Source of the DNA: Deltaproteobacteria bacterium
GTDB taxonomy: Bacteria > Desulfobacterota > Syntrophobacteria > Syntrophobacterales > Syntrophobacteraceae
NCBI GenBank assembly: GCA_012517315.1
Contig: JAAYVE010000029.1
Span: 1-64,000 of the forward strand
Direction: 5' to 3'
DNA length: 64,000 bases
The notes under the pieces are model-generated. The model was given only the letters and a program-made list of their open reading frames with translations. It ran no database searches and was not told the origin of the DNA. Both the position numbers and the translations under genes were made by a program. Positions 2,564-43,645 of this stretch are shown in pieces (positions within the stretch are counted from its first letter, which is position 1; the number at the start of each line of letters is the position of its first letter).

Positions 2564-5269
2564 CTACCCGGTAACAGAGAGAACGATCATGGTCAGATCA
2601 TCGTGCTGCGCGGCGCTGGCGACAAACGTATTCACACTCGCCATGATCTCCCGGAGCATTTCATCTGCTGACATGGACCCGGCTTCCTGAATGGTCTCGA
2701 TCAATCGCTCAAACCCGTATATCTCCTGCCGAGGGTTCATGGCCTCCACAATACCGTCCGTGTAGAAGACCACCCGATCCCCAAGCGCAAGCTGCAACCG
2801 AGTTTCCTGGTAGTCGGCATCTTCCAGGATTCCGAGGGGGAAAGTGTCCCCAAGTGTCTCGATAAAGCTCGCGACTCCGTTCTTCGCCGAGAAATGGACG
2901 GGTTGCGTCTGCCCGGCGCTGCATAATCTCAGGATGCGGTCCCGGGAGTCTATGACCGCATAGAGCAGGGCCACGAACATGCCGCTCTTGACATCTTTCT
3001 TGAGTCGCCGGTTTGCACGACTCATGATCCTGTCGACGGTACGTTGATCCTCGGACAGCATTCTGAACACGCTCCTGGAGGCGGACATGATGAGCGCCCC
3101 GGAGACGCTTTTTCCTGTCACATCGCCTATGAGCATACCCAGCCGATCCTCGGTCATTTCGATGAAGTCGAAGAAGTCCCCCCCCACCTCCCTGGCGGGA
3201 ATCGAGGTGGCGGCAATCTCGAACCCCTTCGCCTCGGGGCACACCGCTGGCAGCATGCTCGTTTGGAGCTCACGGGCGATGGCCAGTTCCTCCTCCATGC
3301 GCTCCTTTTCGATCACTTCATCGAGCAAGAGTGCGTTCTCTATAGCCATCGCCCCATGGCCGGCCAGAATCGCGAGCAGGTTGACGTCTTCTCGCCGGTA
3401 GAATTTTCCCGATTTCTTGTTGCCGACAGCCATGACCCCGACCAACCGGTCGCCTGAGATCAACGGGATCATCAGCACCGCCCGAAGCGAGACGAAGGTA
3501 TCCAGGTAGGCTTCCCTCCGCGCTTCGTAAAAGGGGTCCTCAAGAATATCGTAGATGGTGAGCTCGCTCTGCCTTTCGGCCATGTCTCTAATAAGCGGGC
3601 TTCCCTCATCGAGCGACATTACTGGAACCACTGGATTCCCTGCTTGCGGATTGGTCCCAATGAGTCCACCCTCATTCCGGTTCCGCGATTTCCGCGATGC
3701 GACGATGGCCAGTCCAACGGCCTGCGCCTCGGGCATCCGCATCCCTGCGGCCCGGGTTGCACCCCGGCCCCGAGGGAGGTGGTCATGTCCTTCGGGAACA
3801 TCCAGCCCGGTTCCTTCTTGCGCCCTGTGGCACTCGTAGTGGCCCGAGTGGCGGTTTCGCAGCATCACGCACATCGATTCGATGAACATGGTGCGAACAC
3901 CCGTGTTGACGATGGTCGCCACAATCTGGTCCACGCTCAACAAGGCGCGCATGGATTCCGTAATGCTTGCTACCGTTTCCTGATAGTCGTACTCAAGGCG
4001 GTAGAAAAGGCGGTCTATCAATTTTTGCACCCGACGGTAGACGGGCTGGAACAGGAACACGATAATCAGCGGGAAAATAATGGGGAACAGCACCTGCGCA
4101 TAACCACCCAGGATCGGTCTAACGACCACGGACTGTGTCAGCACTTCGACCCCGTAGAAAGAGACGCCGATCATCAAGCTCATGATAGCATAACCCACGG
4201 CCCGCTTCACGTACACATCCACGTCGAACAGATTGTGTCGAGCGATGGCATAGGCGACAGACGCCGGGAACAAGATGATGGGAATGTCGAGAAGATTGGT
4301 CTGGATAATGTTCCCTTTAGCACCCATGCCCAGATGCAGGAACAAGAGGCCGAACGCCGGAAGCGGGAAAGCCGCGGCGGCCCCCAGCAACACAACCTTG
4401 GCGCGCTGTTTCTCCAGGGCCGACTCTCCCCCGAGAAATGCGCGCAGATTGAAGAAAACCATGATCAGAGCGGTTGCCACATCATAGAAACGCACCATGG
4501 AGAACAGGGTCGTGATGACAGGGCGAGGATACAGAAACAAAACGGGCAGGGCCAGCAAAGTGGAGGCGGCATACGGGGCGAATTGCATGACGGGGTAACG
4601 TTGGATGCACCTTCTTCTGGCGGGGAACAGCAGGGCAAGGTGCAAGCCCGCCGCAGGGATGAAACTTTGGGCAAACAGGTTCAGCCTCACGATACTGAGC
4701 TGGCGACATTCGTATCCCGTCACCGTGGAGAGGCAGAGAAACACGCAGGCGGAAAGGAAAGCCCAGCTCACATCGTGCCGCGGTTTCATGATGTATACGA
4801 GACAGCCGATGAAGAGATAGGCGATCCCGGACAACACCGAAGGACCGTAGACCATGAGAAGATCGGCCCAGGTGAAGGTCATAGAGGGTATGACCATCTC
4901 CACAATCCCGCCGTTCTTTTCCACTTGGTATTGGACGGGACTGCCCGCGGGCAACCGGTTCAGGATTTCATCCAGGTCCTCCGGACAGTTCAGGAGTGTA
5001 CCCTCCGCCTTGACGATCCTGTCGGGGAATTTCAGCCCTTCCCTGATTCCGCACCAATGACTGCGGCCATAGGCATTGACAAACAGACGGCGATTGACCA
5101 CAAAGCCGCCGAAGGGCTTCCCGACGGACTCCACCGCACGATAGGCACACAGGGCGGCGAGCCACAGGGTTGCGACCACCGTGGCGCCAACCAGAATGTG
5201 CTGAAACATGCGCCCTGAAGGAACGCGCCTGTTTGCGATCGTCGCGGGCACGTCAGCGGGCACCATCAT
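2564..5269 (-). CDS. Membrane GAF-SpoIIE (PP2C-type) serine phosphatase
   Basis: A 901-residue protein. Residues ~20-45 form a first membrane helix, followed by an extracytoplasmic PDZ-like segment (about 50-125) and then about seven hydrophobic helices (about 130-400). A GAF domain follows (about 440-660), then a coiled linker beginning EKERMEEELAIARELQ, and a SpoIIE phosphatase domain (about 670-900) with EVGGDFFDF, IGDVTGKSVSGAL and YTDGIVEAMNP, which include the metal-binding Asp residues. It should dephosphorylate a phospho-STAS protein in response to a signal sensed by the membrane or GAF part, and a STAS/RsbW pair lies just downstream. Its start overlaps the stop of lnt by four bases (ATGA), so the two are probably translationally coupled. 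Confidence 0.88.
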   Translation of the reverse strand: MMVPADVPATIANRRVPSGRMFQHILVGATVVATLWLAALCAYRAVESVGKPFGGFVVNRRLFVNAYGRSHWCGIREGLKFPDRIVKAEGTLLNCPEDLDEILNRLPAGSPVQYQVEKNGGIVEMVIPSMTFTWADLLMVYGPSVLSGIAYLFIGCLVYIMKPRHDVSWAFLSACVFLCLSTVTGYECRQLSIVRLNLFAQSFIPAAGLHLALLFPARRRCIQRYPVMQFAPYAASTLLALPVLFLYPRPVITTLFSMVRFYDVATALIMVFFNLRAFLGGESALEKQRAKVVLLGAAAAFPLPAFGLLFLHLGMGAKGNIIQTNLLDIPIILFPASVAYAIARHNLFDVDVYVKRAVGYAIMSLMIGVSFYGVEVLTQSVVVRPILGGYAQVLFPIIFPLIIVFLFQPVYRRVQKLIDRLFYRLEYDYQETVASITESMRALLSVDQIVATIVNTGVRTMFIESMCVMLRNRHSGHYECHRAQEGTGLDVPEGHDHLPRGRGATRAAGMRMPEAQAVGLAIVASRKSRNRNEGGLIGTNPQAGNPVVPVMSLDEGSPLIRDMAERQSELTIYDILEDPFYEARREAYLDTFVSLRAVLMIPLISGDRLVGVMAVGNKKSGKFYRREDVNLLAILAGHGAMAIENALLLDEVIEKERMEEELAIARELQTSMLPAVCPEAKGFEIAATSIPAREVGGDFFDFIEMTEDRLGMLIGDVTGKSVSGALIMSASRSVFRMLSEDQRTVDRIMSRANRRLKKDVKSGMFVALLYAVIDSRDRILRLCSAGQTQPVHFSAKNGVASFIETLGDTFPLGILEDADYQETRLQLALGDRVVFYTDGIVEAMNPRQEIYGFERLIETIQEAGSMSADEMLREIMASVNTFVASAAQHDDLTMIVLSVTG

Positions 5270-6861
5270 CTGTCATCCGTGCATGAATTTCTGATGAAGA
5301 TAGAGAAGGCCAGGAGCAGCATCGATGCCGCAAGACAGACGAGAGCGAAAACATCCCCGTGAACCGTATAGAAGGTCTTGTGAGGAGAAATGGGGATGCT
5401 CCTCGTCAAATGGCCTTCCACAAAGAGCTCTTTGCCGCCGTTGGTGACTTTCCCCACCAGACCTCCATGGGGACCTATGAAGCAGGAAATGCCGGTGTTG
5501 GCGCATCGTACCAGGGGGACCCGGTTCTCCACGGCCCGGAAGACGCTCATGGCGAGGAACTGATAGGGTGCCGCCGTATCGCCGAACCAGGCCTCGTTGG
5601 TGATATTGACCATGAACTGCGCGCCGTTTCTGACAAACTGACGGAAATGCTTGGCAAAGATGTTCTCCCAGCAGATCGTCACCCCGAAAGGGACATCCAT
5701 GATGGAAAAGACCGTGTAGTCCTTCCCCGGAAGGAAATTTCCCGTGGCAGTCACAAAGCGCTTCGGCCAGGGCAGGTCATCGCCGTAGGGCAGGTACTCG
5801 GCGAAAGGCAGCAGCCGGATCTTGTCGTATCGCTTCAGGATGGTCCCTGCAGGGGAAATCAGGTATGCGCTGTTCAGGCGGTGTTCGTTCCTGAGCTCTC
5901 CGGGCCCGAATTTGGGGCGCTGCGCGCTGCCGAACAGAATGTGCGTCTGCGTCTGCCTGGCAAGGTCCGAGATCGTGCTTGAGAAATAGAGGTCTTTGCC
6001 GAACAGCCCCGGCACGGAGGTTTCCGGCCAGACGATCAGATCAGCCGACGCGTTGAGGCAGGCATCGAGGGTCAGGCGCGCGTGACGGTCGAGGTGCCGG
6101 TGCATGAGACCCGAATCCCACTTCAGTGCCTGCGGAATGTTCCCTTGAACCACCGTTAGGTTGATCTTCCGGGATTGGTCCTGGGCCGTTATGGCCATCC
6201 AGCCATGGAGGTACACGCCCACAGAGAGCAGCACCACGAAAATCACTTGACCCACGCGTCCAGGAGTGAGTCTCCGGTCCCCGTTTTCCGACACTTTCAA
6301 ACGGCCGAGAAGATCGGCCAGGGCCGTGTTCACCATCACGATAAGGAAGGAGATCCCGTACACTCCGGTTATCGATGCGATCTGAATAAGGGGCAGATTG
6401 CGATACTGACTGTGCCCCAGCAGTCCCCACGGAAGGCCGAGAAAACCCATGTGAGAGCGCACATATTCGAAGCTGACCCAAAGCACGGGGGCCGTGACAA
6501 GAGCGGGAAAAGGAGTGCGCTCTGTGACAAAGCGCAGCAGCATCCCAAAAACGGCAAAATAGCTGCCCAGGTAAATACCCAGGACGATGAAATCCAGCGG
6601 TGTGAAACCGTCGATTCCATTGATCCAGAAAAATATGCCCATGAAGAAGGCGATGCCCGATGCCAGAGAAAACCAAGCAGCACGGCCCGGGCTGCCGGCC
6701 TGGATCACCGTGAGCAGCGGGACAAGTGCAATCCATGCCGGCAGCCCGTGGTCGAAGGAGGGGAATGAGAGGGCGAGAAGCCCGGCGGACAGAAGGGCAA
6801 GAAACAGATCGCGCATGAGAGCCATGCTCATTTCCGAAACAGCCCATGCCACGGCACGCAT
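5266..6861 (-). CDS. lnt: Apolipoprotein N-acyltransferase
   Basis: A 531-residue inner-membrane enzyme that N-acylates the lipid-modified cysteine of apolipoproteins, the last step of lipoprotein maturation. About seven membrane helices occupy residues 15-225, followed by a nitrilase-fold domain. The catalytic triad is visible: Glu280 in WPETS, Lys347 in YDKIRLLPF and Cys397 in TICWEN. The length is usual for the family. No strong ribosome site marks the start; ATGs at 6831 or 6825 are also possible, since the family core starts near MRDLFLALLSAG. The 3' end overlaps the start of the phosphatase gene by four bases, an unusual pairing of envelope biogenesis with signalling. Confidence 0.95.
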   Translation of the reverse strand: MRAVAWAVSEMSMALMRDLFLALLSAGLLALSFPSFDHGLPAWIALVPLLTVIQAGSPGRAAWFSLASGIAFFMGIFFWINGIDGFTPLDFIVLGIYLGSYFAVFGMLLRFVTERTPFPALVTAPVLWVSFEYVRSHMGFLGLPWGLLGHSQYRNLPLIQIASITGVYGISFLIVMVNTALADLLGRLKVSENGDRRLTPGRVGQVIFVVLLSVGVYLHGWMAITAQDQSRKINLTVVQGNIPQALKWDSGLMHRHLDRHARLTLDACLNASADLIVWPETSVPGLFGKDLYFSSTISDLARQTQTHILFGSAQRPKFGPGELRNEHRLNSAYLISPAGTILKRYDKIRLLPFAEYLPYGDDLPWPKRFVTATGNFLPGKDYTVFSIMDVPFGVTICWENIFAKHFRQFVRNGAQFMVNITNEAWFGDTAAPYQFLAMSVFRAVENRVPLVRCANTGISCFIGPHGGLVGKVTNGGKELFVEGHLTRSIPISPHKTFYTVHGDVFALVCLAASMLLLAFSIFIRNSCTDDR

Positions 6862-14758: not shown

Positions 14759-16096
14759 TCACAGCAATCCCTTTTCCACTGCGTGCTTCACAAGGGCCGA
14801 TGTCTTGTGCAGGTCGAGCTTGCGCATGATTTTGGAGCGATGGGTCTCGACGGTCTTCGTGCTGATGCCGAGCCTGACCCCGATCTGCCTGCTGGTCAGC
14901 CCGGATGCAATGAGCTCCAGCACCTCCGATTCCCTCGCGGTGAGGCTCTGAGAACCGTTGGCGGCAGGCCCCGGCTCTTCCCCCATTCCCATGCCCGTGC
15001 CTATTCTCTTGGAAACGGTCACCACGGCGTTCACACGACCGTTCGCGTCCCTGATGGGAGAAACGGTTTCATGGATGCGGAACGTTTCCCCTTCCCACGT
15101 GAGGTCGCGGGTCTGGCTCAAGTCCCTTCCGTTTCTCTGGACCTTCCTGACCCGCTCCATCATCCTGGACGCAGTCTCCGCATCGAACGTGTCGTAGGGG
15201 GTTTTTCCGAGGATCTCTCCAGGGCAGGCGGTCTCCGGGGGTATTGCAGTAAAAAAAATGAATTTCCCTTCCCGGTTCTGGACAAACACCATGTACTCCG
15301 CGCTCTTCATGAGCACCTTCATGGCTTCCTGTCTTCTCTTTTTTGCCGCTGCGGCCTCCTCCACACCTTTTATCTCCCGCCCCACAAACAGACACCCGAT
15401 CACCTTTCCCTTTGGGTCCTTGAGGGGAGAGATGCTGACCTGGAAGTCGCCCCCGAGGTGCCCCTCACACACTTCCGCTGCTTGCCCCCCGCTATTGGAC
15501 GCCCGTTGGGCGAGGGGGCAAAAGGAAGGGGGGTGCGCCGCCCCGTGAAGAAGTGTGTGGCAGGTGAGGCCCACCGCCCCCTGCACGGTGACGCCCAGCC
15601 TGTCGGCCATGGGTTTGTTGACCCGTTCGAAGCGGTACCGGTCGTCTACGACGGCGAGAAGATACGGCATGGTGTCTATGGCCCGCAGCCATTCCCGCCT
15701 CGAACGGGAGATCAGTTCCTCTCTCTGCTTGCGCTCCGTGATGTCGCGCCCGACGCCCAGGACCGCCCTCACTCCTCCCGTCCCGTTGTGGATGGGGGTG
15801 AAATGGGTTTCCAGCCAAAGTTCCCGGCCGGGCAGGGCAACCCTTTCCTCCAAGGAAAATGCCGCCCCTGATTGAAAAAGCGTCAATAGACGTTGGTGAT
15901 CGCTCACGCGACCGTATTTCGAAAAGACCTCTCCGATGGGTCTGCCGATGATCTCATGGGAGCCGAAGCCGAGGAATCTGGAAACGCGGCGGTTCGCATA
16001 GCACACGTTGAGGGCGGAGTCGATCAGCAGCACAAGATCCTCGGCGGAGTCCGCCACCTGTTGCAGGGCTTCCACCGCCCTTGCAAGGGAGTGCAT
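14759..16096 (-). CDS. PAS-PAS-PAS LuxR-family transcriptional regulator (paralogue 1)
   Basis: 445 residues from an ATG with a GAAAGGAGGACC ribosome site (the longer frame to 16282 lacks one). Three PAS units follow each other: about 5-125 (ends VLGVGRDITERK), about 140-250 and about 265-370. A LuxR/GerE helix-turn-helix is at about 375-445 (LTARESEVLELIASGLTSRQI, KTVETHRSKIMRKL). There is no kinase or receiver domain, so it should be a one-component regulator in which a PAS domain senses a ligand or redox state. The middle PAS carries Cys179 and Cys193 in the pattern C-x13-C-P-L, shared with the two paralogues upstream. It is the last of three same-direction copies. Confidence 0.88.
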   Translation of the reverse strand: MHSLARAVEALQQVADSAEDLVLLIDSALNVCYANRRVSRFLGFGSHEIIGRPIGEVFSKYGRVSDHQRLLTLFQSGAAFSLEERVALPGRELWLETHFTPIHNGTGGVRAVLGVGRDITERKQREELISRSRREWLRAIDTMPYLLAVVDDRYRFERVNKPMADRLGVTVQGAVGLTCHTLLHGAAHPPSFCPLAQRASNSGGQAAEVCEGHLGGDFQVSISPLKDPKGKVIGCLFVGREIKGVEEAAAAKKRRQEAMKVLMKSAEYMVFVQNREGKFIFFTAIPPETACPGEILGKTPYDTFDAETASRMMERVRKVQRNGRDLSQTRDLTWEGETFRIHETVSPIRDANGRVNAVVTVSKRIGTGMGMGEEPGPAANGSQSLTARESEVLELIASGLTSRQIGVRLGISTKTVETHRSKIMRKLDLHKTSALVKHAVEKGLL

Positions 16097-16388
16097 TGGT
16101 CCTCCTTTCTCTCGTCCAGGATGCATGGGCTGCCGGCGTGTGAAGGAGCGGGCCGGAAAAGGGAGGATCTCGACCCGCCTGATGAAGAGGGAAGGGGAGG
16201 GGGTCTTGTGATGGAGCGCAGGGGGGTCGATGACGCGGCGCCCTCTCAATGCCACTTTATCCCCATGGAAACCGTGGATCAATCAGGCCAAAAATGCATA
16301 ATCGATCCGGTGAAGGCTGTATTTTGAAGAACCGATGCAGCGGAGGCGCTCCCGGGGGGTTCTGTGCGGGGCGGCGGGAAGGGGGGCT

Positions 16389-17750
16389 TCAGATGATGCC
16401 GCAAGTCAGGGCGTAGCGCACCAGGGCGGAGGACTTGTGCAGGTCGAGCTTCTGCATGATCCTCGCCCTGTGGGTTTCAACGGTCTTCCTGCTGATGTAG
16501 AGTTTCTCGGCGATCTGTTTGTTCGTCAATCCCGATGCGATCAGCCGCAGCACTTCTGTCTCCCGCGCCGTGAGCCCCTGGATGTTGAGACAGCCGTTGT
16601 TCTCTTCCAGGTGGCGAGAGCGCCCTGAAATTCTTTTTGAAATCGTCACCACGGCCCTGATGTGTCCCGCCGAATCCCTTATGGGGGAAACCCGGTCAAA
16701 GAAGCAAAGCGGTTTCTCCCCGTCGCCGGACACGTGGGTCTCCTCGCTCAGCTCCAAGCCGCTCTCGGCCACCTGCCTCACCCTCTCGAGCATTTTCACG
16801 GCCATGGCCGTGTCGAAGAAGTCAAAGGGCGTTTTGCCAGGAAGATTCCGGGTGAGCAGACTGCAAGGGGGGACGGAACTGACGAACACGTACCTCCCCT
16901 CCTTGTTTTGTATCGTGATGATGTGGTCAGCCCGCCGCAGGAGAAGTCCCATGGTCTCCCTGTCTTTCCCCGGCAGTTCCCCCTCCCTGCTTTGGAGTCC
17001 GCTGCTCACGCACACCATGTAGAGACAGCCGACGAGCTCCCCATACCTGTCCCGTAGGGAACGGACGGTGACGAGTTGAACCTCGTCATCACAACGTTCG
17101 ATAAATTCCAGTTTCCGTTCTTTCCTACCTGATGCGGCACGCAAAAGGGGGCAGAAGTAAGGGGGCTCCGGGAGTCCTCGAAGGTGCTCGTGGCACGTAA
17201 GTCCCACGGCCGCCTGAACGGTGACCCCTAGTCTGTCCGCCATGGCCTGGTTGACTTTTCTGATGCGAAAGCGGGTATCGCTGATGGCCATGAGATGCGG
17301 CATGCTGTCGATGGCCCGCAGCCACTCCTCCTTGGAATGGGCGACCAGCCTCTCATAGGTTCTCCGCTCCGTGACGTCCCGGGCAACGCCAACGATGGTA
17401 CAGGTGATCCCGTTGCCCCCGGCGATCGGCGCAAGGCTCGTTTCGATCAAATGCTCGCGATCGTTCAGCACAATCCTGTCCTCGTGGGAAGAATGCCTGC
17501 CGGTCTCGAGCGCCGCCACGAGCCGCGGCTCCAGGACCCTGAAGACATCCGGAAGGAAAAGCCGACTGAGTTTCCTGCCGATGACCGGGCCGGTTCGGCA
17601 CAGAAGGTGCCCTTCCCGGTTGTCCGCGTATTGGACGAGGAGGTCACGGTCAACGACGAAAACGAAATGATCTGCCGTTTCAAGGTCTTGGCGCGCCGGA
17701 TGCGGCGGGTTCAGGGCGGATGCGCAATCGGCTTCCCGTTCATTCTCCAT
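16389..17750 (-). CDS. PAS-PAS-PAS LuxR-family transcriptional regulator (paralogue 2)
   Basis: 453 residues, same layout as the neighbour at 14759-16096. The ATG follows an AGGAGG ribosome site. The first PAS ends with VGVARDVTERRTYERL, the middle PAS carries the paired cysteines (GLTCHEHLRG and FCPLLRAA), the third PAS is followed by ISKRIS, and the LuxR helix-turn-helix is at about 385-453 (LTARETEVLRLIASGLTNKQI, KTVETHRARIMQKL). The middle PAS and the HTH are close between copies, while the first and third PAS differ more, suggesting shared DNA targets but different inputs. The target genes are unknown. Confidence 0.88.
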   Translation of the reverse strand: MENEREADCASALNPPHPARQDLETADHFVFVVDRDLLVQYADNREGHLLCRTGPVIGRKLSRLFLPDVFRVLEPRLVAALETGRHSSHEDRIVLNDREHLIETSLAPIAGGNGITCTIVGVARDVTERRTYERLVAHSKEEWLRAIDSMPHLMAISDTRFRIRKVNQAMADRLGVTVQAAVGLTCHEHLRGLPEPPYFCPLLRAASGRKERKLEFIERCDDEVQLVTVRSLRDRYGELVGCLYMVCVSSGLQSREGELPGKDRETMGLLLRRADHIITIQNKEGRYVFVSSVPPCSLLTRNLPGKTPFDFFDTAMAVKMLERVRQVAESGLELSEETHVSGDGEKPLCFFDRVSPIRDSAGHIRAVVTISKRISGRSRHLEENNGCLNIQGLTARETEVLRLIASGLTNKQIAEKLYISRKTVETHRARIMQKLDLHKSSALVRYALTCGII

Positions 17751-17947
17751 CTTGAAGCCTCCTGAGAAATGCGCGTGTTTCGAAGGGGAGGGTACCTCTC
17801 ATTATTATCATACCTGCGTGGGGCGGATCAGCGCAATCGAGTGCAGTGAGTATTTCTGTAAGGTGAAGATTGTATATTCGTCAGGGTGGAGCCCTTGGCT
17901 CCAGGGGAAGGACGAAGTGGGGAAAGAGGCGGCGGGCGGTTTTCGAA

Positions 17948-19327
17948 TCAGAAAAGCCCCAGTTTGATGGCGATCTTGACGAGGGCTGACGTTCGGTGGA
18001 CATCGAGCTTGCGCATCATTCGTGCCCGGTGAGTCGCAACAGTTTTTCCGCTGATGAAGAGTTTTTCCGCTATTTCCTTGTTTGTGAGGCCTGATGCGAT
18101 CATCCGGAGGACTTCCATCTCCCTTAGGGTAAGACCCTGCATATTCTGAGGCACCAGAGGCGATTGCTCCCTTGGCTGATCTTTCGCGCCAAGCTTTCTG
18201 GAAATCGTTACCACGGACTGCGCGTTGCCTGCGGCATCTTTGATGGGGGAAATCTGTTCGAAGAAACGGAACGTTTCGCCATAGCAGCATACTTCCGCCA
18301 GCCGAGTGAGGGTCTCTCCCGTTGCGGCCGCGCGCAGCAGGCGTTCCAGCATTCGGGAGGCCTGGGACGGTTCGAAGAAATCGAGGAGGGTTTTGCCGAG
18401 CACCTCCTTGGTGAGCGTGCCGACTTCGGGTGAGGCACTGAAGAAAAGGTACTTTCCCTGGAGATCATGCACGGATACCATGTGATCGGTACTCCTCATG
18501 AGCAACTTCATGCGCTCTTCGCCCCTCCTTTGCGGCTTGATAGCCCTCTCCCCCCCGGACATCGGCCGCCCGACGTAAACGCAGCCGATGATGCTCCCTA
18601 TGCGGTTCCGCAGGGAGGACACGTTCGCCAGGTAACCAGTGCCCAGGTGGCCCTCGTAAAACTCCATCGCGCACTCATCGTTTTCGGCGGCCGTCTCCGC
18701 CCGCAGCAGCGGGCACAGAGCAAGGGGCTCGTGCAACCCGTGAAGAGCTTCGTAACAGAACAGCCCAACCGCCTCCTCCACGGAGATCCCCATTTTCCGC
18801 GCCAATGGGACATTGACCCGTGTGATACGGTGCTCATTGTTGATGACCGCCAGCAAGAGCGGGAGGCTGTCAATGGCTTGTTCCCACTCGCGCTTGCCCT
18901 GGGCGATGCGTTCTTCGGTTTTTCTGTCCTCCGTGACATCCCGTGCGATACCGAGAACGCCTATGGACGATCCATTCCTGTCCAGAATAGGGGTAAGCCG
19001 GGCGTCAAACCACAATTCACCGCCATGGTTGGGGAAGAAAAGCCTGTCCCTGAAGTGACAGGTCTTGAGCGATTTGAAAACTATCCTCAGGTGTTCTTGG
19101 ACAACGCCCAGGGAGTCCGGAGGAAAAAGCTCGGTCAGATGCCGGCCCGTCATTTCCTGGGGCGAGCACCCGAACAGGGTGGCCAGCGAAGGGTTCACGT
19201 ACCGGTAGAACAAGTTCTTGTCGATGATGAAGATGAAGTCATCGGCCAGTTTGGTGAACTGCCCGAGCAGTTCCGCCGCCTCTTGCATGGGAGCGAAGGT
19301 GGTTTCGTTCTGGCCGGTCATCGCCAT
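17948..19327 (-). CDS. PAS-PAS-PAS LuxR-family transcriptional regulator (paralogue 3)
   Basis: 459 residues with the same architecture: PAS about 18-140 (ends VLGIARDVTEDRKTEER), middle PAS about 150-265 with GLFCYEALHG and CPLLRAE, third PAS about 280-385, and LuxR helix-turn-helix about 390-459 (LTLREMEVLRMIASGLTNKEI, KTVATHRARMMRKL). The C-x13-C-P-L pair is kept. The start is one of two nearby ATGs (19327 or 19321) behind AAGGG. It lies 39 bases downstream of a GAF-protein gene in the same direction and is the first of the three tandem copies. Confidence 0.88.
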   Translation of the reverse strand: MAMTGQNETTFAPMQEAAELLGQFTKLADDFIFIIDKNLFYRYVNPSLATLFGCSPQEMTGRHLTELFPPDSLGVVQEHLRIVFKSLKTCHFRDRLFFPNHGGELWFDARLTPILDRNGSSIGVLGIARDVTEDRKTEERIAQGKREWEQAIDSLPLLLAVINNEHRITRVNVPLARKMGISVEEAVGLFCYEALHGLHEPLALCPLLRAETAAENDECAMEFYEGHLGTGYLANVSSLRNRIGSIIGCVYVGRPMSGGERAIKPQRRGEERMKLLMRSTDHMVSVHDLQGKYLFFSASPEVGTLTKEVLGKTLLDFFEPSQASRMLERLLRAAATGETLTRLAEVCCYGETFRFFEQISPIKDAAGNAQSVVTISRKLGAKDQPREQSPLVPQNMQGLTLREMEVLRMIASGLTNKEIAEKLFISGKTVATHRARMMRKLDVHRTSALVKIAIKLGLF

Positions 19328-19366: not shown

Positions 19367-20476
19367 TCAGAGGTTCGTGTCCCGGTACTTGACGCAAGGG
19401 GTCCATGAACCCAGCGGCCTTTTGCACCCTTTGCACGAATTTTGCCCCTGTCGCTGCTTGCAGTAACTGTCGACGACATACTCGAAAATCCTGGCGTTGC
19501 GAATTGCGAACGCGATTTCCTCGGCGATGGAGAGAAGATGGTGGTGCTCCTCCTCCGTGAAGAGCCCCCCGTCAACCTTGTTCAACACTTCAAGAACACC
19601 GATGGGCTCTTCCCCCGCAACAAGGGGTATGGCGATCATGTTCCTTGTCTTGAATCCGGACTCGGCATCGACTTTCCCATAGAAGCGGGGGTCGTTTTGG
19701 ACATCGTTGATGAGTTCCGACTGCCGCGTTCGCAGAACAAAACCGGCCAACCCCTTCTCGGCGGGAATGGTGACTCCTCGCAGCACCGCCTTTGCCGGCC
19801 CTTCGGTCCGGTAAAACAGGAAATTCTCCTTCTCGTCGTCCAGGAGCAGCACCGACGCCTCGGTGGCGGAGGCCACCTCCATACAGCAGTGCAAGGCAGT
19901 TTCCAGGAGTTCACTGAGACCGAACGACTGGGCCAGCATCGAACTGACGGTGAGGTAGGTGTTCAGGTGGCTGAGCTGCCTCTGCGCCCGTTTCCACTCT
20001 TGAAGACGCCTGAGGTGGTGAGAAAGGATCCGCAGGTATCGCTCCCAGTGCTCCGCCGGGAAAGGGACGCCACCGGCCTTCAAGCCGATCCCAAGGATCC
20101 CCGCGACCCCCTTTTCTCCTTGCAGCGGATAGAGAAGAAGCTTCTCGGCCCGTTCAACACCGTTCAGGGAGATCGTCGCTGACGGGTCCCTTGTATCCCC
20201 TCGGACCGGGATCTCCTCCAGATATCCATTGCAGAGCCCTTTCACCCAGGGCAGGAGGTCTTCGGGAAGACCGTTGTGAAAGAACTGGGGGGCCGGCAGC
20301 CTCGAGTCGACGGTACAAAAAAATGCCGCCCATGCGTGGAGTGTTGAGAGAAGGACTTTGAGCGTATTTTCAGCGAAATCCTCCAGGCTGACGGTCGTCA
20401 AGGTTTTCTCGAGGAGATCGAGGAATTGCGTGGTGTCTTGCTCGGAAGGTCCGGCTTGCCTTTTATCAGGAAACAT
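19367..20476 (-). CDS. GAF-domain protein with Cys-rich C-terminal tail
   Basis: 369 residues from an ATG with a GGAGGG ribosome site; the frame extends 6 codons further to 20494. An N-terminal GAF-like region (about 15-150) is followed by a helical linker and a clear GAF domain at about 175-335 (SSMLAQSFGLSELLETALHC through AEEIAFAIRNARIFEYV). The tail holds seven basic residues and five cysteines, including SCKGCKRPLGSWTPC, which looks able to bind a metal or cluster or to respond to oxidation. There is no output domain, so it probably works with other proteins, perhaps the co-directional PAS-LuxR regulators. The ligand is unknown. Confidence 0.75.
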   Translation of the reverse strand: MFPDKRQAGPSEQDTTQFLDLLEKTLTTVSLEDFAENTLKVLLSTLHAWAAFFCTVDSRLPAPQFFHNGLPEDLLPWVKGLCNGYLEEIPVRGDTRDPSATISLNGVERAEKLLLYPLQGEKGVAGILGIGLKAGGVPFPAEHWERYLRILSHHLRRLQEWKRAQRQLSHLNTYLTVSSMLAQSFGLSELLETALHCCMEVASATEASVLLLDDEKENFLFYRTEGPAKAVLRGVTIPAEKGLAGFVLRTRQSELINDVQNDPRFYGKVDAESGFKTRNMIAIPLVAGEEPIGVLEVLNKVDGGLFTEEEHHHLLSIAEEIAFAIRNARIFEYVVDSYCKQRQGQNSCKGCKRPLGSWTPCVKYRDTNL

Positions 20477-20791
20477 CTCAGCCCTCCATCTCACGCAGCA
20501 TGCCGGGGACGTGTATCAATATCAAAAGGGGGAAATGGCGCCTTGGCGGGGAATCCGCTGTCTTGCGCCGGCCAAAATCAAACTTTGGCCAAGCGATCCC
20601 TGTCCCGCCAGCAAAGAAAGCTTATACTGATTTTGTTATTAAAGCAAAGAAAGGCGCAAATCTCAATCGGTTAAAAGTTGTATTCTTTTCGCCAACGAGA
20701 CGGTGCATCTTGCGGCGCAAGGACCAGCAGATTCGACTCTGGCGTTGTCACCAGGGGTGAGCGTCTCAACCCACCAGGGCTTGGGCCGCCG

Positions 20792-22600
20792 TCAGACGTC
20801 CTTAAAATGCGCCACCTTGACGACCACACCCAGGTCCTGGACCTTGCTGCCGAATTCCTCCAGGAGTCGGTTGAGAGCCAGTTGGTGCTCTTCTCGAAAA
20901 ACGAAGAACATGCTCATGACCTGATGCCTTTCCAGAGCCGCTTCGTCGGATGTCCGGCACAGATCCGCGTGGAGTGGCCGGAGATCGCTCAGAGCCTCGC
21001 CGATGTATTGGTACCGATGAGCGGGGTTTCTGCTGCAGGCTTTGAGGATGAAGTTCCGAAGCGATTCAGTGATACCGGGATCCAGTTCGCACGGGTCTGG
21101 AACGTCCTGGTGGAGACGCCTCTCCACCAATTCGTTCAGGTCGTCTTCGGGATATGGCCGACGGCCAGTGACCAACTCGTATGCCGTGATGCCCAGGGCG
21201 TAGATGTCCGTGCGCACATCCACTTGATGTCCTTCCAGTTGTTCGGGGGCCGCATAGTATATGGTGCCGGCCATGTTCAAGTCCTCACTGCCGGAGGGAC
21301 AGGCCAGTCCAAAATCCAGGATTCTCACCCGATCTTCCGCCTGGACAAAGATGTTGGCCGGCTTGATGTCCTGGTGAACGATCCCCTGCTCGTGTGCGTA
21401 GGCGAGACCTTCACAGATCTGTACGAGCAAATCCACCGCCTGGGGGACAGGAATGATTCCCATGCGGGCAAGCAGACCATCCAGACCCTGACCCTCCAGG
21501 TATTCCATGATGATGAAAACAGTGTGAAAGGCCTCCTCGATGTCGTAGACGCGCACGATATTCCTGTGGTTCATCCGGGCGATGATCTTCGCCTCGTTTC
21601 TGAATTTGTCGAGGAAACTCTGCTCCATGGCCATGTTGTGCTTCAGCATCTTGATGGCCACGGGCACGTTCAAAATCTTGTGGACACCGTGATAGACGAT
21701 GCTCCAGCCCCCCTTTCCCAGTTTGTTCTTGATCGTGTACTTTCCGATTGCCCGCTCGCCGGTGAGGGGTTCCGATTCGAACCGGTGCGTCACGAGTTCG
21801 GTCAGGAAGAACCGGAGATCCGGGCACTCGGCGGAGACCATCTCGAACTGCGCTTTGCCCAGCCCCCAGAGCTTCATAGGCGTCTCGGCCTCCACGTGAG
21901 CGCTCCGCGGTTCGCCGGTCAGGACCGCCATTTCGCCAACAACGTCCCCCTCCATGAGGCGGGCCACCAGGCAGAGCTTGCCGTCTTTCGGCACCTGGAC
22001 CGTGCACTTCCCCTCCTGGATGATATAGAGCGCATCCCCCACATCTCCCTGGGAAAACAATCGATCACCGGACTGGAGGGTCTTCATGGCGAGGCTGTTC
22101 AACAGGCGGCAGACAGCGTTTTCCGGGATGGAACGGATCAGGGGGGTCGCGGTCAGGAATTGAAGGTCGTCGGGTTTCGGGATGGGGTACCCACTCAGGA
22201 GTTTCCCTACGGCTGAGGAGTCCTCCAGTCCGGCCGAGAAGGCGAGACCGACGGCGTATTGGTTTCGTGTGGAATCCCTGCGGGACCACGCTGCACGGGC
22301 ATAGCAGGCTTTCCACGCCGTGTTGGGACGGTCGAAAATCAGAAAGAGCAATTGGGGAACAGGGGTGAGGTCATACGACGATTCAACCCGTGCTCCTTTT
22401 TCACCGATGTCGCAGACAGTCAGGTAGAAAGCATGTGACGCCTGTTCGAAAGAGGAGAGGTCGGAACAGTACTCGTATGTGTCAAACTGGACCAGACCGA
22501 TGAGAGGAGTGTCCAGGGTGCTTCTCGGGCAGCCTCTGCGATCCTTGAATTCCTTCACGCCATCCCTCCGTTTGTAGCAATGGTAGAGAGGCATCGGCAT
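20792..22600 (-). CDS. PilZ - cNMP-binding - Ser/Thr protein kinase fusion
   Basis: About 602 residues. Residues ~5-125 form a PilZ-like domain (RRGCPR as RxxxR; DIGEKGARV as the DxGxxG part), which in known proteins binds c-di-GMP. A cyclic-nucleotide-binding domain follows (about 160-275, with LFSQGDVGDALYIIQEGK and GEMAVLTGEPRSAHVE). A Hanks-type kinase domain spans about 285-545: glycine loop LGKGGWSIVY, VAIKML lysine, catalytic loop HQDIKPAN, DFG intact. The usual HRD Arg is replaced by Gln, so activation-loop phosphorylation may not be needed. The last ~50 residues (FFVFREEHQLALNRLL...) are an extra C-terminal module. The start is uncertain (ATGs at 22600, 22594 and 22639). Confidence 0.85.
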   Translation of the reverse strand: MPMPLYHCYKRRDGVKEFKDRRGCPRSTLDTPLIGLVQFDTYEYCSDLSSFEQASHAFYLTVCDIGEKGARVESSYDLTPVPQLLFLIFDRPNTAWKACYARAAWSRRDSTRNQYAVGLAFSAGLEDSSAVGKLLSGYPIPKPDDLQFLTATPLIRSIPENAVCRLLNSLAMKTLQSGDRLFSQGDVGDALYIIQEGKCTVQVPKDGKLCLVARLMEGDVVGEMAVLTGEPRSAHVEAETPMKLWGLGKAQFEMVSAECPDLRFFLTELVTHRFESEPLTGERAIGKYTIKNKLGKGGWSIVYHGVHKILNVPVAIKMLKHNMAMEQSFLDKFRNEAKIIARMNHRNIVRVYDIEEAFHTVFIIMEYLEGQGLDGLLARMGIIPVPQAVDLLVQICEGLAYAHEQGIVHQDIKPANIFVQAEDRVRILDFGLACPSGSEDLNMAGTIYYAAPEQLEGHQVDVRTDIYALGITAYELVTGRRPYPEDDLNELVERRLHQDVPDPCELDPGITESLRNFILKACSRNPAHRYQYIGEALSDLRPLHADLCRTSDEAALERHQVMSMFFVFREEHQLALNRLLEEFGSKVQDLGVVVKVAHFKDV

Positions 22601-23000
22601 TCTCAAGAGGCTGACGGGCACAGAAGGGGGAAGCAGCAAGGGTTGGGGGGCAGGGGAGGATGCAAGGCCTGCGATACCGGTATAGGGTCGTTTTTAAGAT
22701 CTCACTTGCCAAGGGGCCGGGAAATCTCTCCTCTTGTCTGCCTGTCCGAAATATTTATGGGTCCCTGGAAAGGGAAAAGTCAAGTCTTTTGGTAGGGGGT
22801 GAAGGCGCGGGCAAGGAGAGGGAGAACGGCGAGATTTCCGTGACCTGAGGAGAGAGGAATTGGGAATTTGGTGGGATCTTGCCACGGCGAGGGAGCAGGC
22901 GGGGCCCGCTCCCTCCGACCCCTGCCGAACCGGTTTCGTGCCCCTCGGCTGCCGCCCGTGCTTACCCCATGTGGGGAGAATGTCCTGGTGCCCCCCGGTT
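22601..23000. other. Intergenic region, no gene seen
   Basis: About 400 bases between the kinase gene and the small Fe-S protein gene, both on the minus strand. The open frames are short, lack ribosome sites and have no coherent composition. The promoter of the kinase gene is expected here, but I could not identify a convincing -35/-10 pair. Confidence 0.5.
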
Positions 23001-28078: not shown

Positions 28079-28246
28079 CCGGTTTGGGAGTGCGTGACGA
28101 TTTCGTGGTCTGCCTAAGGGGTGTCCGGCAACGCATCGAGGGGGCGAGAGCCTTTGTGAGGAACCGATCCCCAGCGCGCCGGCGCAGGTTTGCCGGGTCG
28201 GCGGGATCCGGCGAGACGAGGACCGGCTGATTCCAAAGAGTTGATC

Positions 28247-29479
28247 ATGGCCATCCTGGGATTGTTCAGGGGGGAGTTTTGCGCGGACGATGCCTTTGTG
28301 GACCGCCTTTCGGAGGCGATCGGTTACTCCCTCGTTCGGGATGATGATGTGGTGACCCGGGCCGGAGCCGACTGGGGTATGCCCGAAACCAAGCTCCGAA
28401 AGGCGTTTTCCAGCAGACCCTTCCTTTTTAATCCGTTCACGCACGAAAAGGAACGTTCCATCGCGTTTCTCCGGGTCTCCCTGGCCCAGGCGGTCACAGA
28501 CAAGGGTTGCATCGTCGACGGCTTCACCATGCATCTGCTGCCTTTCACGGTGGACCATGTCCTTCGTGTGTGTCTCGTTGCGGAGAGAGCATACCGGGCC
28601 AAGGTGGGAATGAGCCGCCTTGAGATGCCGAGGGATGAGATCATGGCGCGGGTGCTGCGGGACGATGCGGACCGTTCCGCTTGGGTGGAACGGATTCACG
28701 GGATTGCGGACCCCTGGACGCCTTCACTCTACGACATGGTGCTCCCCATGGACAAGATGTCCTCAGATGCTGCTCTGAGAGCTATCGAGGAAAATCTCCA
28801 AAAAGAGGTGCTGCAGCCCTCGGAGGAATCCTTGCGGGCCATGGATGATTTCCGGCTGGCGGCAAGGGTTGCAGCGGCTCTGGCAAGGGCGGGTCACAGC
28901 CTGGAGTTGACGGCTTCATCGGGTCAGGTGACCGTAAACGTGAGGAAATCGGTATTGCTCATGGGGCGCCTGGAGGAGGAACTGAGGGAGATCCTGTCGA
29001 CAGTGGAAGGGGTTGAAACGGTGACGTTTCGCACGGATCCGGAAGAGCGGGCGGCGGAGCCCTACCGCCGCTACGACCCCGCCACTCCGTCCAGGATTCT
29101 CCTTGTGGACGACGAAAGGGATTTTGCCCAGAGTCTCTCCGAGCGGCTCACGATACGGGACATGGGATCGATCGTCGCCTATGACGGGGAATCGGCCCTG
29201 GAGGTGGTGAAAGCGGATGAACCGGAAGTGATGGTTCTCGACCTCAAAATGCCCGGGATCGACGGCATTGAGGTGCTCAGACGGATCAAAAAGTCCCGCC
29301 CGGACATCGAGGTGATCATTCTCACGGGTCGCGGAACGGAAGCGGACCGGGAAGTGTGCATGCAACTGGGGGCCTTCGCTTACCTTGAGAAACCTGTGGA
29401 CATCGAACTCTTGAGCACAACGTTGCGTCTGGCAAACGAAAAGGTGCAAGGCAGAGGCAGGGAAGGACGGAAAGCCTGA
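28247..29479 (+). CDS. Degenerate cytidylate-kinase-like protein fused to a receiver domain
   Basis: 410 residues from the ATG at 28247. Residues ~1-190 resemble the cytidylate kinase-like family (MAILGLFRGEFCADDAFVDRL, later HLLPFTVDHVLRVCLVAERAYRAK), but the glycine-rich P-loop expected after the first strand is absent, so kinase activity is doubtful. Residues ~205-270 form a small alpha/beta region resembling a BON domain (SLELTASSGQVTVNVRKS). Residues ~281-400 are a response-regulator receiver with acceptor Asp332 in MVLDLKMPGIDG and Lys in AYLEKPVD. There is no DNA-binding output. It lies between tetR and a histidine kinase gene, so the kinase is the likely phosphodonor. Confidence 0.75.
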   Translation: MAILGLFRGEFCADDAFVDRLSEAIGYSLVRDDDVVTRAGADWGMPETKLRKAFSSRPFLFNPFTHEKERSIAFLRVSLAQAVTDKGCIVDGFTMHLLPFTVDHVLRVCLVAERAYRAKVGMSRLEMPRDEIMARVLRDDADRSAWVERIHGIADPWTPSLYDMVLPMDKMSSDAALRAIEENLQKEVLQPSEESLRAMDDFRLAARVAAALARAGHSLELTASSGQVTVNVRKSVLLMGRLEEELREILSTVEGVETVTFRTDPEERAAEPYRRYDPATPSRILLVDDERDFAQSLSERLTIRDMGSIVAYDGESALEVVKADEPEVMVLDLKMPGIDGIEVLRRIKKSRPDIEVIILTGRGTEADREVCMQLGAFAYLEKPVDIELLSTTLRLANEKVQGRGREGRKA

Positions 29480-41895: not shown

Positions 41896-43566
41896 CTAAG
41901 TTGTTGAAACCGGTTGGGGAAAACGGCCGCGCTTTGGTTGTTGGCAGGCTGCCCGGTTTGCCATCCTCTTCATCATGTTCCGGCAGTCGTCAACCGGCCA
42001 GGCGGCGCAAACGACGGTCCCCCTGCCGGGGTGGGATTCCACGGAAAAGCTTCCACCGGAGAGTTCCGTCCTCTCCTTCATCCCCGCCAGACCCAATCCC
42101 GTCTCCAATGCAGTTCCGCCCCGGTCCTTATGGAGAGGCATCCCCTGGCCGTCATCCTCGATGCGCAGGCAAATCCGCTTGTCACGTTTTGTGAGAGAGA
42201 TCCGGACCGTCTTGGCACCGCTGTGCTTGGCCACGTTGTTGAATGCCTCCTGCACGATTCTGAACAGAATGATCTTCAGGGAAACCTCGATTTCCTCCTC
42301 GCAGACATCGATCTCCTTTTCCACCCGGATATCCCCGTATACACCCTGAAATTCCCGACAAAACCAGTCGATGGTGGGCAGGATCCCCAAGTCGTCCAGG
42401 AGGGAGGGTCTCAAATCTCGAGAGATGCGTCTCACTTCCTTGAGGGTTTCCACCGCGATGGGAAGTAGGGTTTGCAGGAGTTGTGCCGCCGGTTGCCTGC
42501 GGTTTTTCCCCAAAAGGTTGATGGCGTTTTCCAGGCCGAATTTCACTGCGGTGAGGTGCTGACCCACACTGTCGTGGAGTTCGGCGGCGATTCGCTTGCG
42601 CTCTCTTTCCTGGGCTGTAAGAAGTTGGGAGGACATGTGGCGCAGCTGTCTTTCCGAATCCCGCAGTGCGTCTTCCGCCATCTTGCGATCGGTGATGTCC
42701 TCGTAGTTCATGAGGATTTTCCCGTCTCCGATGAAAACGGAGCGGATTTGCACGATTTTCTGGGTTCCATCCTTGCAGCAGATGGACACCGTTTGATCCG
42801 AAATGCTTCCTTGTTTCATCCCAGCCGGCAGGGGAGGGTTCCACAGGGACATGATGTTCTCCCTGTATTGAGGATCGGGGAATGCCAGCTCTTGCCATGC
42901 GCGCAGGTCGGGAATGTCGGATGGCGTGTATCCGAAGATCTTCTGAAACTGAGGATTGACATATTCGATGTGTCCACAGACGTCGCAGAGGGTGATCCCG
43001 AACGGGGCACATTCAGCCAACAGGCGGAAACGGCTTTCACTCTCCTGGAGGGACCGTTCCTTGGTGGCAAGGGCTTCCATGGCCACATTGCGTTCGGTAA
43101 GAAGGGCGGACAACTGCTCATTCTTTTTCCTGAGATCGGCGATCGTTTCCTTTTCGGATTTGTGGAGCTGCTGGCTGAGGTATCGCGCCATATCGTAGGC
43201 GATGCTGGGCCAACGGAGGAGAAGGGATTCGAACACGTCCCGGTTCATCACCAGGAGGCGAGCCTCAGTCCGGGTTCGAACCGTGGCGGTGCGCAGTCCG
43301 TCAGGGATGAGGAAACTCATCTCACCGATGTGTTCTCCAGGACCACGGACATTGAGCAAGCGTTCGTCGGGTGTCCCATAAGCCTTGAGCACCTCCAGTT
43401 CCCCCTCGCACACCATGTAGAAGCAGTCTCCCAGATCTCCCTCGCGGAAGAGCACCTTGGAGGCCGGGTAAACATATTGAGGCAGGGTGCTCAAAAGTTC
43501 CTGGAGTTCCATTTTGGGCACGGATGTAAAAAGAGGCGTCTTGATAATGGGGAGAGGTCTGTTCAT
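41896..43566 (-). CDS. cNMP-binding, PAS, NarL-type sensor histidine kinase
   Basis: 556 residues, cytoplasmic. Residues ~18-130 form a cyclic-nucleotide-binding domain (LFREGDLGDCFYMVCEGELEV, GEMSFLIPDGLRTATV). A coiled coil (about 140-180) and a PAS domain (about 185-305, SRFRLLAECAPFGITLCDVC through YEDITDRK) follow, then a HisKA_3 domain with His (AAELHDSVGQHLTAV) and a HATPase domain (FNNVAKHSGA, DDGQGMP, GLGLAGMKERTELSGG). Kinases of this class work with NarL/LuxR-type regulators, but none with a receiver lies adjacent. It converges on era with 25 bases between. Confidence 0.9.
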   Translation of the reverse strand: MNRPLPIIKTPLFTSVPKMELQELLSTLPQYVYPASKVLFREGDLGDCFYMVCEGELEVLKAYGTPDERLLNVRGPGEHIGEMSFLIPDGLRTATVRTRTEARLLVMNRDVFESLLLRWPSIAYDMARYLSQQLHKSEKETIADLRKKNEQLSALLTERNVAMEALATKERSLQESESRFRLLAECAPFGITLCDVCGHIEYVNPQFQKIFGYTPSDIPDLRAWQELAFPDPQYRENIMSLWNPPLPAGMKQGSISDQTVSICCKDGTQKIVQIRSVFIGDGKILMNYEDITDRKMAEDALRDSERQLRHMSSQLLTAQERERKRIAAELHDSVGQHLTAVKFGLENAINLLGKNRRQPAAQLLQTLLPIAVETLKEVRRISRDLRPSLLDDLGILPTIDWFCREFQGVYGDIRVEKEIDVCEEEIEVSLKIILFRIVQEAFNNVAKHSGAKTVRISLTKRDKRICLRIEDDGQGMPLHKDRGGTALETGLGLAGMKERTELSGGSFSVESHPGRGTVVCAAWPVDDCRNMMKRMANRAACQQPKRGRFPQPVSTT

Positions 43567-43645
43567 GGAAGGCCCTCAATTTCCCAGGAATATCAGGCTG
43601 GAGGCGGAGACGGAATGCTCGAGGCTTTCCGCTTCCATGCTGATC

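Follow-up and report, generated by a model that had tools for sequence, protein, structure and literature searches.

Can a single bacterial protein place a Ser/Thr kinase under the control of two nucleotide second messengers? This question was raised by a minus-strand gene in the window (the whole stretch of 64,000 nucleotides analysed here), for which the original prediction proposed a PilZ domain, a cyclic nucleotide-binding (cNMP) domain and a Hanks-type kinase in one chain. The ORF list gave 20792-22639 as the longest open frame, opening with TTG, and the gene end first placed at 22600 proved to be an ATG inside this frame. Reading of the sequence showed a GTG at 22558-22556 with GGAGG 6 nt upstream, and most relatives, read from their own starts, were 588-590 aa long. 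Because of this GGAGG and the nearly equal lengths of the relatives, the GTG at 22558 is the most likely start, and we took it as the probable one. The promoter scan found nothing useful. The gene and its parts were laid out as follows:

20792..22558, minus strand: PilZ-cNMP-kinase coding sequence, 588 aa (ORF; probable GTG start)
22223..22540, minus strand: PilZ domain, residues ~7-112 (Pfam 0.0072 in the window copy; fold match)
21836..22084, minus strand: cNMP-binding domain, residues 159-241 (Pfam 2e-19; nearest PDB relatives PKG/PKA)
21008..21739, minus strand: Hanks-type Ser/Thr kinase domain, residues 274-517 (Pfam Pkinase 4e-55)
20795..20971, minus strand: conserved C-terminal tail, residues ~530-588 (alignment; modelled as helical; matching no named family)

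From the N- to the C-terminus the order was thus PilZ, cNMP-binding domain, Hanks kinase and a conserved tail of ~60 residues, and only the PilZ score fell under its curated Pfam cut-off. The predicted domains and their order were right, and full-length relatives in distant genomes shared the architecture. Homology searches found such relatives patchily across Desulfobacterota: those with ~45% identity came from its own family and from one other family of the class, further PilZ-bearing relatives lay in two more families, and the named copies came from metagenome-assembled Desulfobacterota or Deltaproteobacteria. The kinase family occurred in 13 of 56 genomes of the class and, in a phylum search at a stringent cut-off, in 13 of 395 genomes of the phylum; it was absent from one congener that was searched. 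Judged from these patchily distributed full-length relatives, the three-domain architecture is real and maintained.

The tree separated the cNMP-kinases from the remaining kinases of the genome (branch support 90/97), and it grouped one subfamily, whose N-terminus is Cys-rich, into a supported clade (99/100). The PilZ-bearing members required 2 changes and the place of the window row was not resolved; the proposal that they form one clade was not retained, a single origin being neither shown nor excluded. Members of the Cys-rich sister subfamily (L012, L013, L050-L054) had wholly or partly lost the Glu/Arg pair of the cNMP domain and lacked the Lys of the catalytic loop (HRDITPGN, HRDINTSN); they kept DFG and sometimes had a PP2C neighbour. 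Because this subfamily has lost them, the cassette residues and loop Lys kept in the PilZ-bearing branch are more telling.

The kinase part matched the Pkinase profile and contained the Lys, Glu, HxD Asp, Asn and DFG Asp of the Hanks-type Ser/Thr kinases. K303, E322, D397, K399, N402, D415, G417 and E439 were invariant in the alignment, and the glycine-rich loop was intact. The predicted HQD loop was found where expected:

21353..21376, minus strand: catalytic loop HQDIKPAN, non-RD (sequence and alignment)

RD kinases, which read HRD, are a subclass and not the Hanks superfamily itself, and the window kinase lies outside that subclass. Replacement of the HRD Arg might point to an inactive scaffold, that is, a pseudokinase; however, this Arg is not itself catalytic, and Lys303, Glu322, Asp397, Asn402 and Asp415 are all in place and invariant, which makes a pseudokinase very improbable. 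As the catalytic residues are invariant, the kinase is probably active.

All 12 PilZ-bearing members examined were non-RD, with HQD in 10 and HLD in 2 (L045 and L046). Summed over columns, 148 genomes of the phylum contained 5 exact HQD-type loops and about 160 HRD-type loops, and 3 of these 5 belonged to the PilZ-cNMP-kinase family, so that HQD as common noise was rejected. HQD kinases also existed outside the family (L018-L020), and five other kinases of the window's genome matched the HRD pattern. From the HQD loop it had originally been argued that control may come from the ligand domains. A non-RD loop does fit a kinase with no activation-loop switch, but HRD occurred together with an intact cNMP cassette in family members L011, L048 and L058; the loop is therefore suggestive and was rejected as proof of ligand control.

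We next considered the cNMP domain, which matched its profile and carried the Glu and Arg of the CRP/PKA/PKG type in its cassette:

21899..21937, minus strand: phosphate-binding cassette GEMAVLTGEPRSA with E209 and R218 (alignment A1)

E209 and R218 were invariant in alignment A1; in CRP, PKA and PKG the equivalent Glu and Arg bind the ribose and the phosphate of the nucleotide. When the domain was searched alone, its nearest sequence relatives in the PDB were the PKG and PKA domains that bind cyclic nucleotides. Over the cNMP plus kinase part the nearest were cGMP-dependent protein kinases (PKGs), and the whole protein matched best the apicomplexan PKGs. Many proteins with a cNMP fold bind no cyclic nucleotide, and both the PilZ and the cNMP folds could be inert regulatory or docking domains, in which case partners or the C-terminal tail would control the kinase. 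Ligand-less cNMP folds are common, and the Cys-rich sister subfamily has lost the pocket residues while keeping the fold. Against this, all members aligned in A1 have the Glu and Arg of the pocket and, as described below, cyclases cluster with the kinase gene well above chance, and we consider inert domains quite unlikely.

The PilZ call needed closer inspection, as the window copy reached 17.1 bits while the Pfam cut-off is 22.5 bits. PilZ was matched by Pfam in 9 of 11 aligned members, at best with 1e-9. Six strands were predicted for the N-terminal domain (mean pLDDT 72), which Foldseek matched best to the PilZ parts of BcsA, MotI, PA0012, YcgR and Alg44, many of them solved with c-di-GMP; a PDB sequence-profile search with the PilZ alignment gave no match. 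Since relatives reached 1e-9 and the predicted fold matched PilZ structures, a chance match was rejected. The original PilZ assignment is thus supported by the relatives and by the predicted fold, although the profile match of the window copy itself is sub-threshold. Two motifs were located in the domain:

22523..22537, minus strand: PilZ RxxxR motif, R8-G-C-P-R12 (alignment A2)
22394..22411, minus strand: second PilZ motif, D50-I-G-E-K-G55 (alignment)

R8 and R12 were invariant in the 10 PilZ-bearing sequences of alignment A2. The second motif of the window copy read DxGxxG and not [D/N]xSxxG, Gly52 replacing the Ser of nearly all relatives; the canonical NxSxxG was kept in most of them. The absence of this Ser is compatible with c-di-GMP binding, because Myxococcus xanthus PixB, whose two PilZ domains both have RxxxR and lack the second-motif Ser, bound c-di-GMP when assayed in vitro as the full-length protein (PMC8316039). 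Loss of ligand-binding residues in both sensor domains, which had been named as a result that would speak against the original prediction, was not what we found: the Glu/Arg pair of the cNMP domain and RxxxR of PilZ were kept, and the second-motif Ser was lost. Dual ligand binding by the cNMP and PilZ domains is, on these residues, plausible.

Some relatives had the cNMP-kinase part without PilZ, so PilZ is dispensable for the core module. Possibly only the cNMP domain senses, the window PilZ having degenerated by decay into a structural or protein-protein interaction module unable to bind c-di-GMP. The sub-threshold Pfam score, the Ser to Gly change and the PilZ-less relatives that retain the cNMP-kinase core would all fit such a decay, as would the M. 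xanthus PilZ-kinase Pkn1, which is predicted not to bind c-di-GMP (PMC8316039). However, RxxxR is kept in the window copy, the second motif is canonical in most relatives, and PixB binds c-di-GMP despite lacking the Ser, so we regard the decay as rather unlikely. A stand-alone cNMP-PilZ protein with reversed domain order and no kinase was also observed in the window's genome (L033:1416-2483, minus strand); its cNMP cassette apparently lacks the Arg.

The neighbourhoods of the relatives were then compared. A class III cyclase was found within 10 kb at 10 of 16 kinase loci (0.63 expected), and a PP2C phosphatase within 10 kb at 9 of 21 (0.18 expected); these counts were taken over genomes, and rows within genus g21 are non-independent. 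With one row per genus, the cyclase was still found in 6 of 8 (0.45 expected). In genus g21 the kinase cluster comprised a PP2C, an HD protein and a GAF-SpoIIE phosphatase, with a CHASE2 class III cyclase directly downstream of the kinase. The class III cyclase that follows the kinase in genome G046 is of another kind and carries AAA and TPR parts. Cyclases also lay near PilZ-less members in family f61. At the window locus, no cyclase or PP2C was found near the kinase. The linkage of the relatives to cyclase and PP2C genes, a direct observation, is the strongest support for the cyclic-nucleotide-gated reading.

The HD-domain protein beside the g21 kinases (L038:4744-5610, L040:5641-6519, L041:8673-9536, L042:5036-5899) was closest to NCBIfam NF045583 (Npun_R2479, an HD metalloprotein of uncharacterized function), just under the cut-off, and had no PDB relative by sequence. 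For these two reasons it was rejected as a proven phosphodiesterase and is kept as a candidate cyclic-nucleotide phosphodiesterase.

As to which nucleotide would be bound, the neighbouring cyclases gave different indications. The CHASE2 cyclases of g21 carried the sequences LKEYVGD and YGALGD, and their best PDB match was Cya2 (2w01), with the Glu aligned to E488 and the Gly to Gly. Cya2, itself a guanylyl cyclase with CHASE2, has a Glu-Gly pair, and its E488K form is an adenylyl cyclase (PMC4215837, PMC5995499). The g21 neighbour cyclase, outside the window, has both the CHASE2 part and the Glu-Gly substrate pair of this type. Because the pair aligns with that of Cya2, in which E488K shifts the product to that of an adenylyl cyclase, the g21 neighbours are predicted to be guanylyl cyclases. 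Elsewhere the cyclase neighbours were of the K-T adenylyl type (L060, L062) or had the ambiguous N-G pair (L037). With E-G, N-G and K-T pairs in the neighbouring cyclases, a uniform cGMP ligand was rejected, and the ligand may differ between members.

Profile searches of the window's genome gave 10 GGDEF, 4 class III cyclase, 8 PilZ and 16 cNMP matches. Two of the four class III cyclases had Lys with Thr/Ser (adenylyl-type), one was degenerate and one was a small domain with Glu and Thr; none of the four lay near the kinase. As they include two of adenylyl type and none is linked, cAMP is somewhat more likely than cGMP as the ligand of the window copy. The 10 GGDEF matches and the 8 PilZ matches, which are further to the window kinase, make it very likely that c-di-GMP is present in the host.

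Around the kinase gene, further signalling genes were observed in the window. The next gene downstream was:

19367..20494, minus strand: GAF-domain protein, same strand as the kinase (ORF list and sequence similarity)

It began ~300 nt downstream of the kinase and resembled the GAF-SpoIIE phosphatase near the kinase in relatives. Further downstream of these two genes lay three tandem paralogous PAS-repeat LuxR-type regulators (14759-19327, minus strand), and a GAF-SpoIIE phosphatase related to the one beside the g21 kinases was located at 2567-5272 (minus strand). At 41899-43575 (minus strand), 19 kb away, lay a histidine kinase that begins with a cNMP domain (cNMP-PAS-HisKA_3-HATPase) and is possibly a second cyclic-nucleotide-sensing kinase. 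The gene at 28190-29479 (plus strand) showed an unusual pairing, in which a cytidylate-kinase-like domain (PF13189) shares one chain with a response-regulator receiver domain.

Taken together, we favour, with somewhat better than even confidence, a cytosolic and probably active kinase that is switched in cis by a cyclic nucleotide and receives c-di-GMP through PilZ as a second input. A cyclic nucleotide would bind the cNMP domain directly before the kinase and set it on or off in cis, as in PKG, while the N-terminal PilZ would add c-di-GMP, biasing the cNMP-kinase module or its partners. As the catalytic loop is non-RD, the main switch is probably something other than phosphorylation of the activation loop. 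Among relatives, the neighbouring class III cyclase would supply the nucleotide and the neighbouring PP2C phosphatase would reverse the kinase output; the window kinase would draw its nucleotide from a cyclase encoded elsewhere in its genome, with an adenylyl cyclase the likelier source. Domain order, conservation, catalytic and pocket residues and gene linkage were read directly; the ligand, the direction of its effect, the substrates and any part of PilZ in kinase control are inferred.

Compared with known systems, the window kinase is built like eukaryotic PKG (Plasmodium PKG, 5ezr; mammalian PKG I, 7lv3), with a cNMP domain placed immediately before a Ser/Thr kinase on one polypeptide; PKGs were also its best PDB sequence matches, and the cassette Glu and Arg are kept. 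It differs from PKG in having one cNMP domain where PKG has two or more, an added PilZ and the HQD loop. M. xanthus Pkn1 is likewise a bacterial Ser/Thr kinase fused to PilZ, but it is described as kinase and PilZ only, with no cNMP domain, and its PilZ is the one predicted to be non-binding (PMC8316039). In Xanthomonas campestris XC_0249/XC_0250, a guanylate cyclase gene is linked to a cNMP-domain effector that connects cGMP to c-di-GMP signalling, but the output is a diguanylate cyclase and c-di-GMP is product, not input (PMC3770947). A cNMP domain also allosterically controls a c-di-GMP-related enzyme in Bdellovibrio Bd1971, the output there being an EAL phosphodiesterase and no kinase (PMC6717892). 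Kinase and cyclic nucleotide-binding domain are also joined in bacterial Ser/Thr kinases of planctomycetes, and PilZ is unmentioned in the main text of that paper (PMC11032199). In our literature search, of incomplete coverage, no paper described a single chain that combines PilZ, cNMP and kinase domains. The PilZ-kinase and cNMP-kinase halves each have precedents, and the combination is apparently new.

In eukaryotes, the textbook route by which cAMP and cGMP act is through cyclic-nucleotide-dependent kinases, whereas the cNMP effectors known best from bacteria are transcription factors. We tentatively suggest that this family may be a bacterial counterpart of PKG, with cGMP or cAMP from a neighbouring cyclase, reversal by PP2C and gating by c-di-GMP in the same chain. 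The family has a PilZ domain, an intact cNMP pocket and both cyclase and phosphatase genes as neighbours, and it thereby opens two questions to direct test: do bacteria possess kinases gated by cAMP or cGMP, and does a single kinase receive both c-di-GMP and a cyclic mononucleotide? If the proposed mechanism is true, one enzyme would integrate two nucleotide second messengers into protein phosphorylation.
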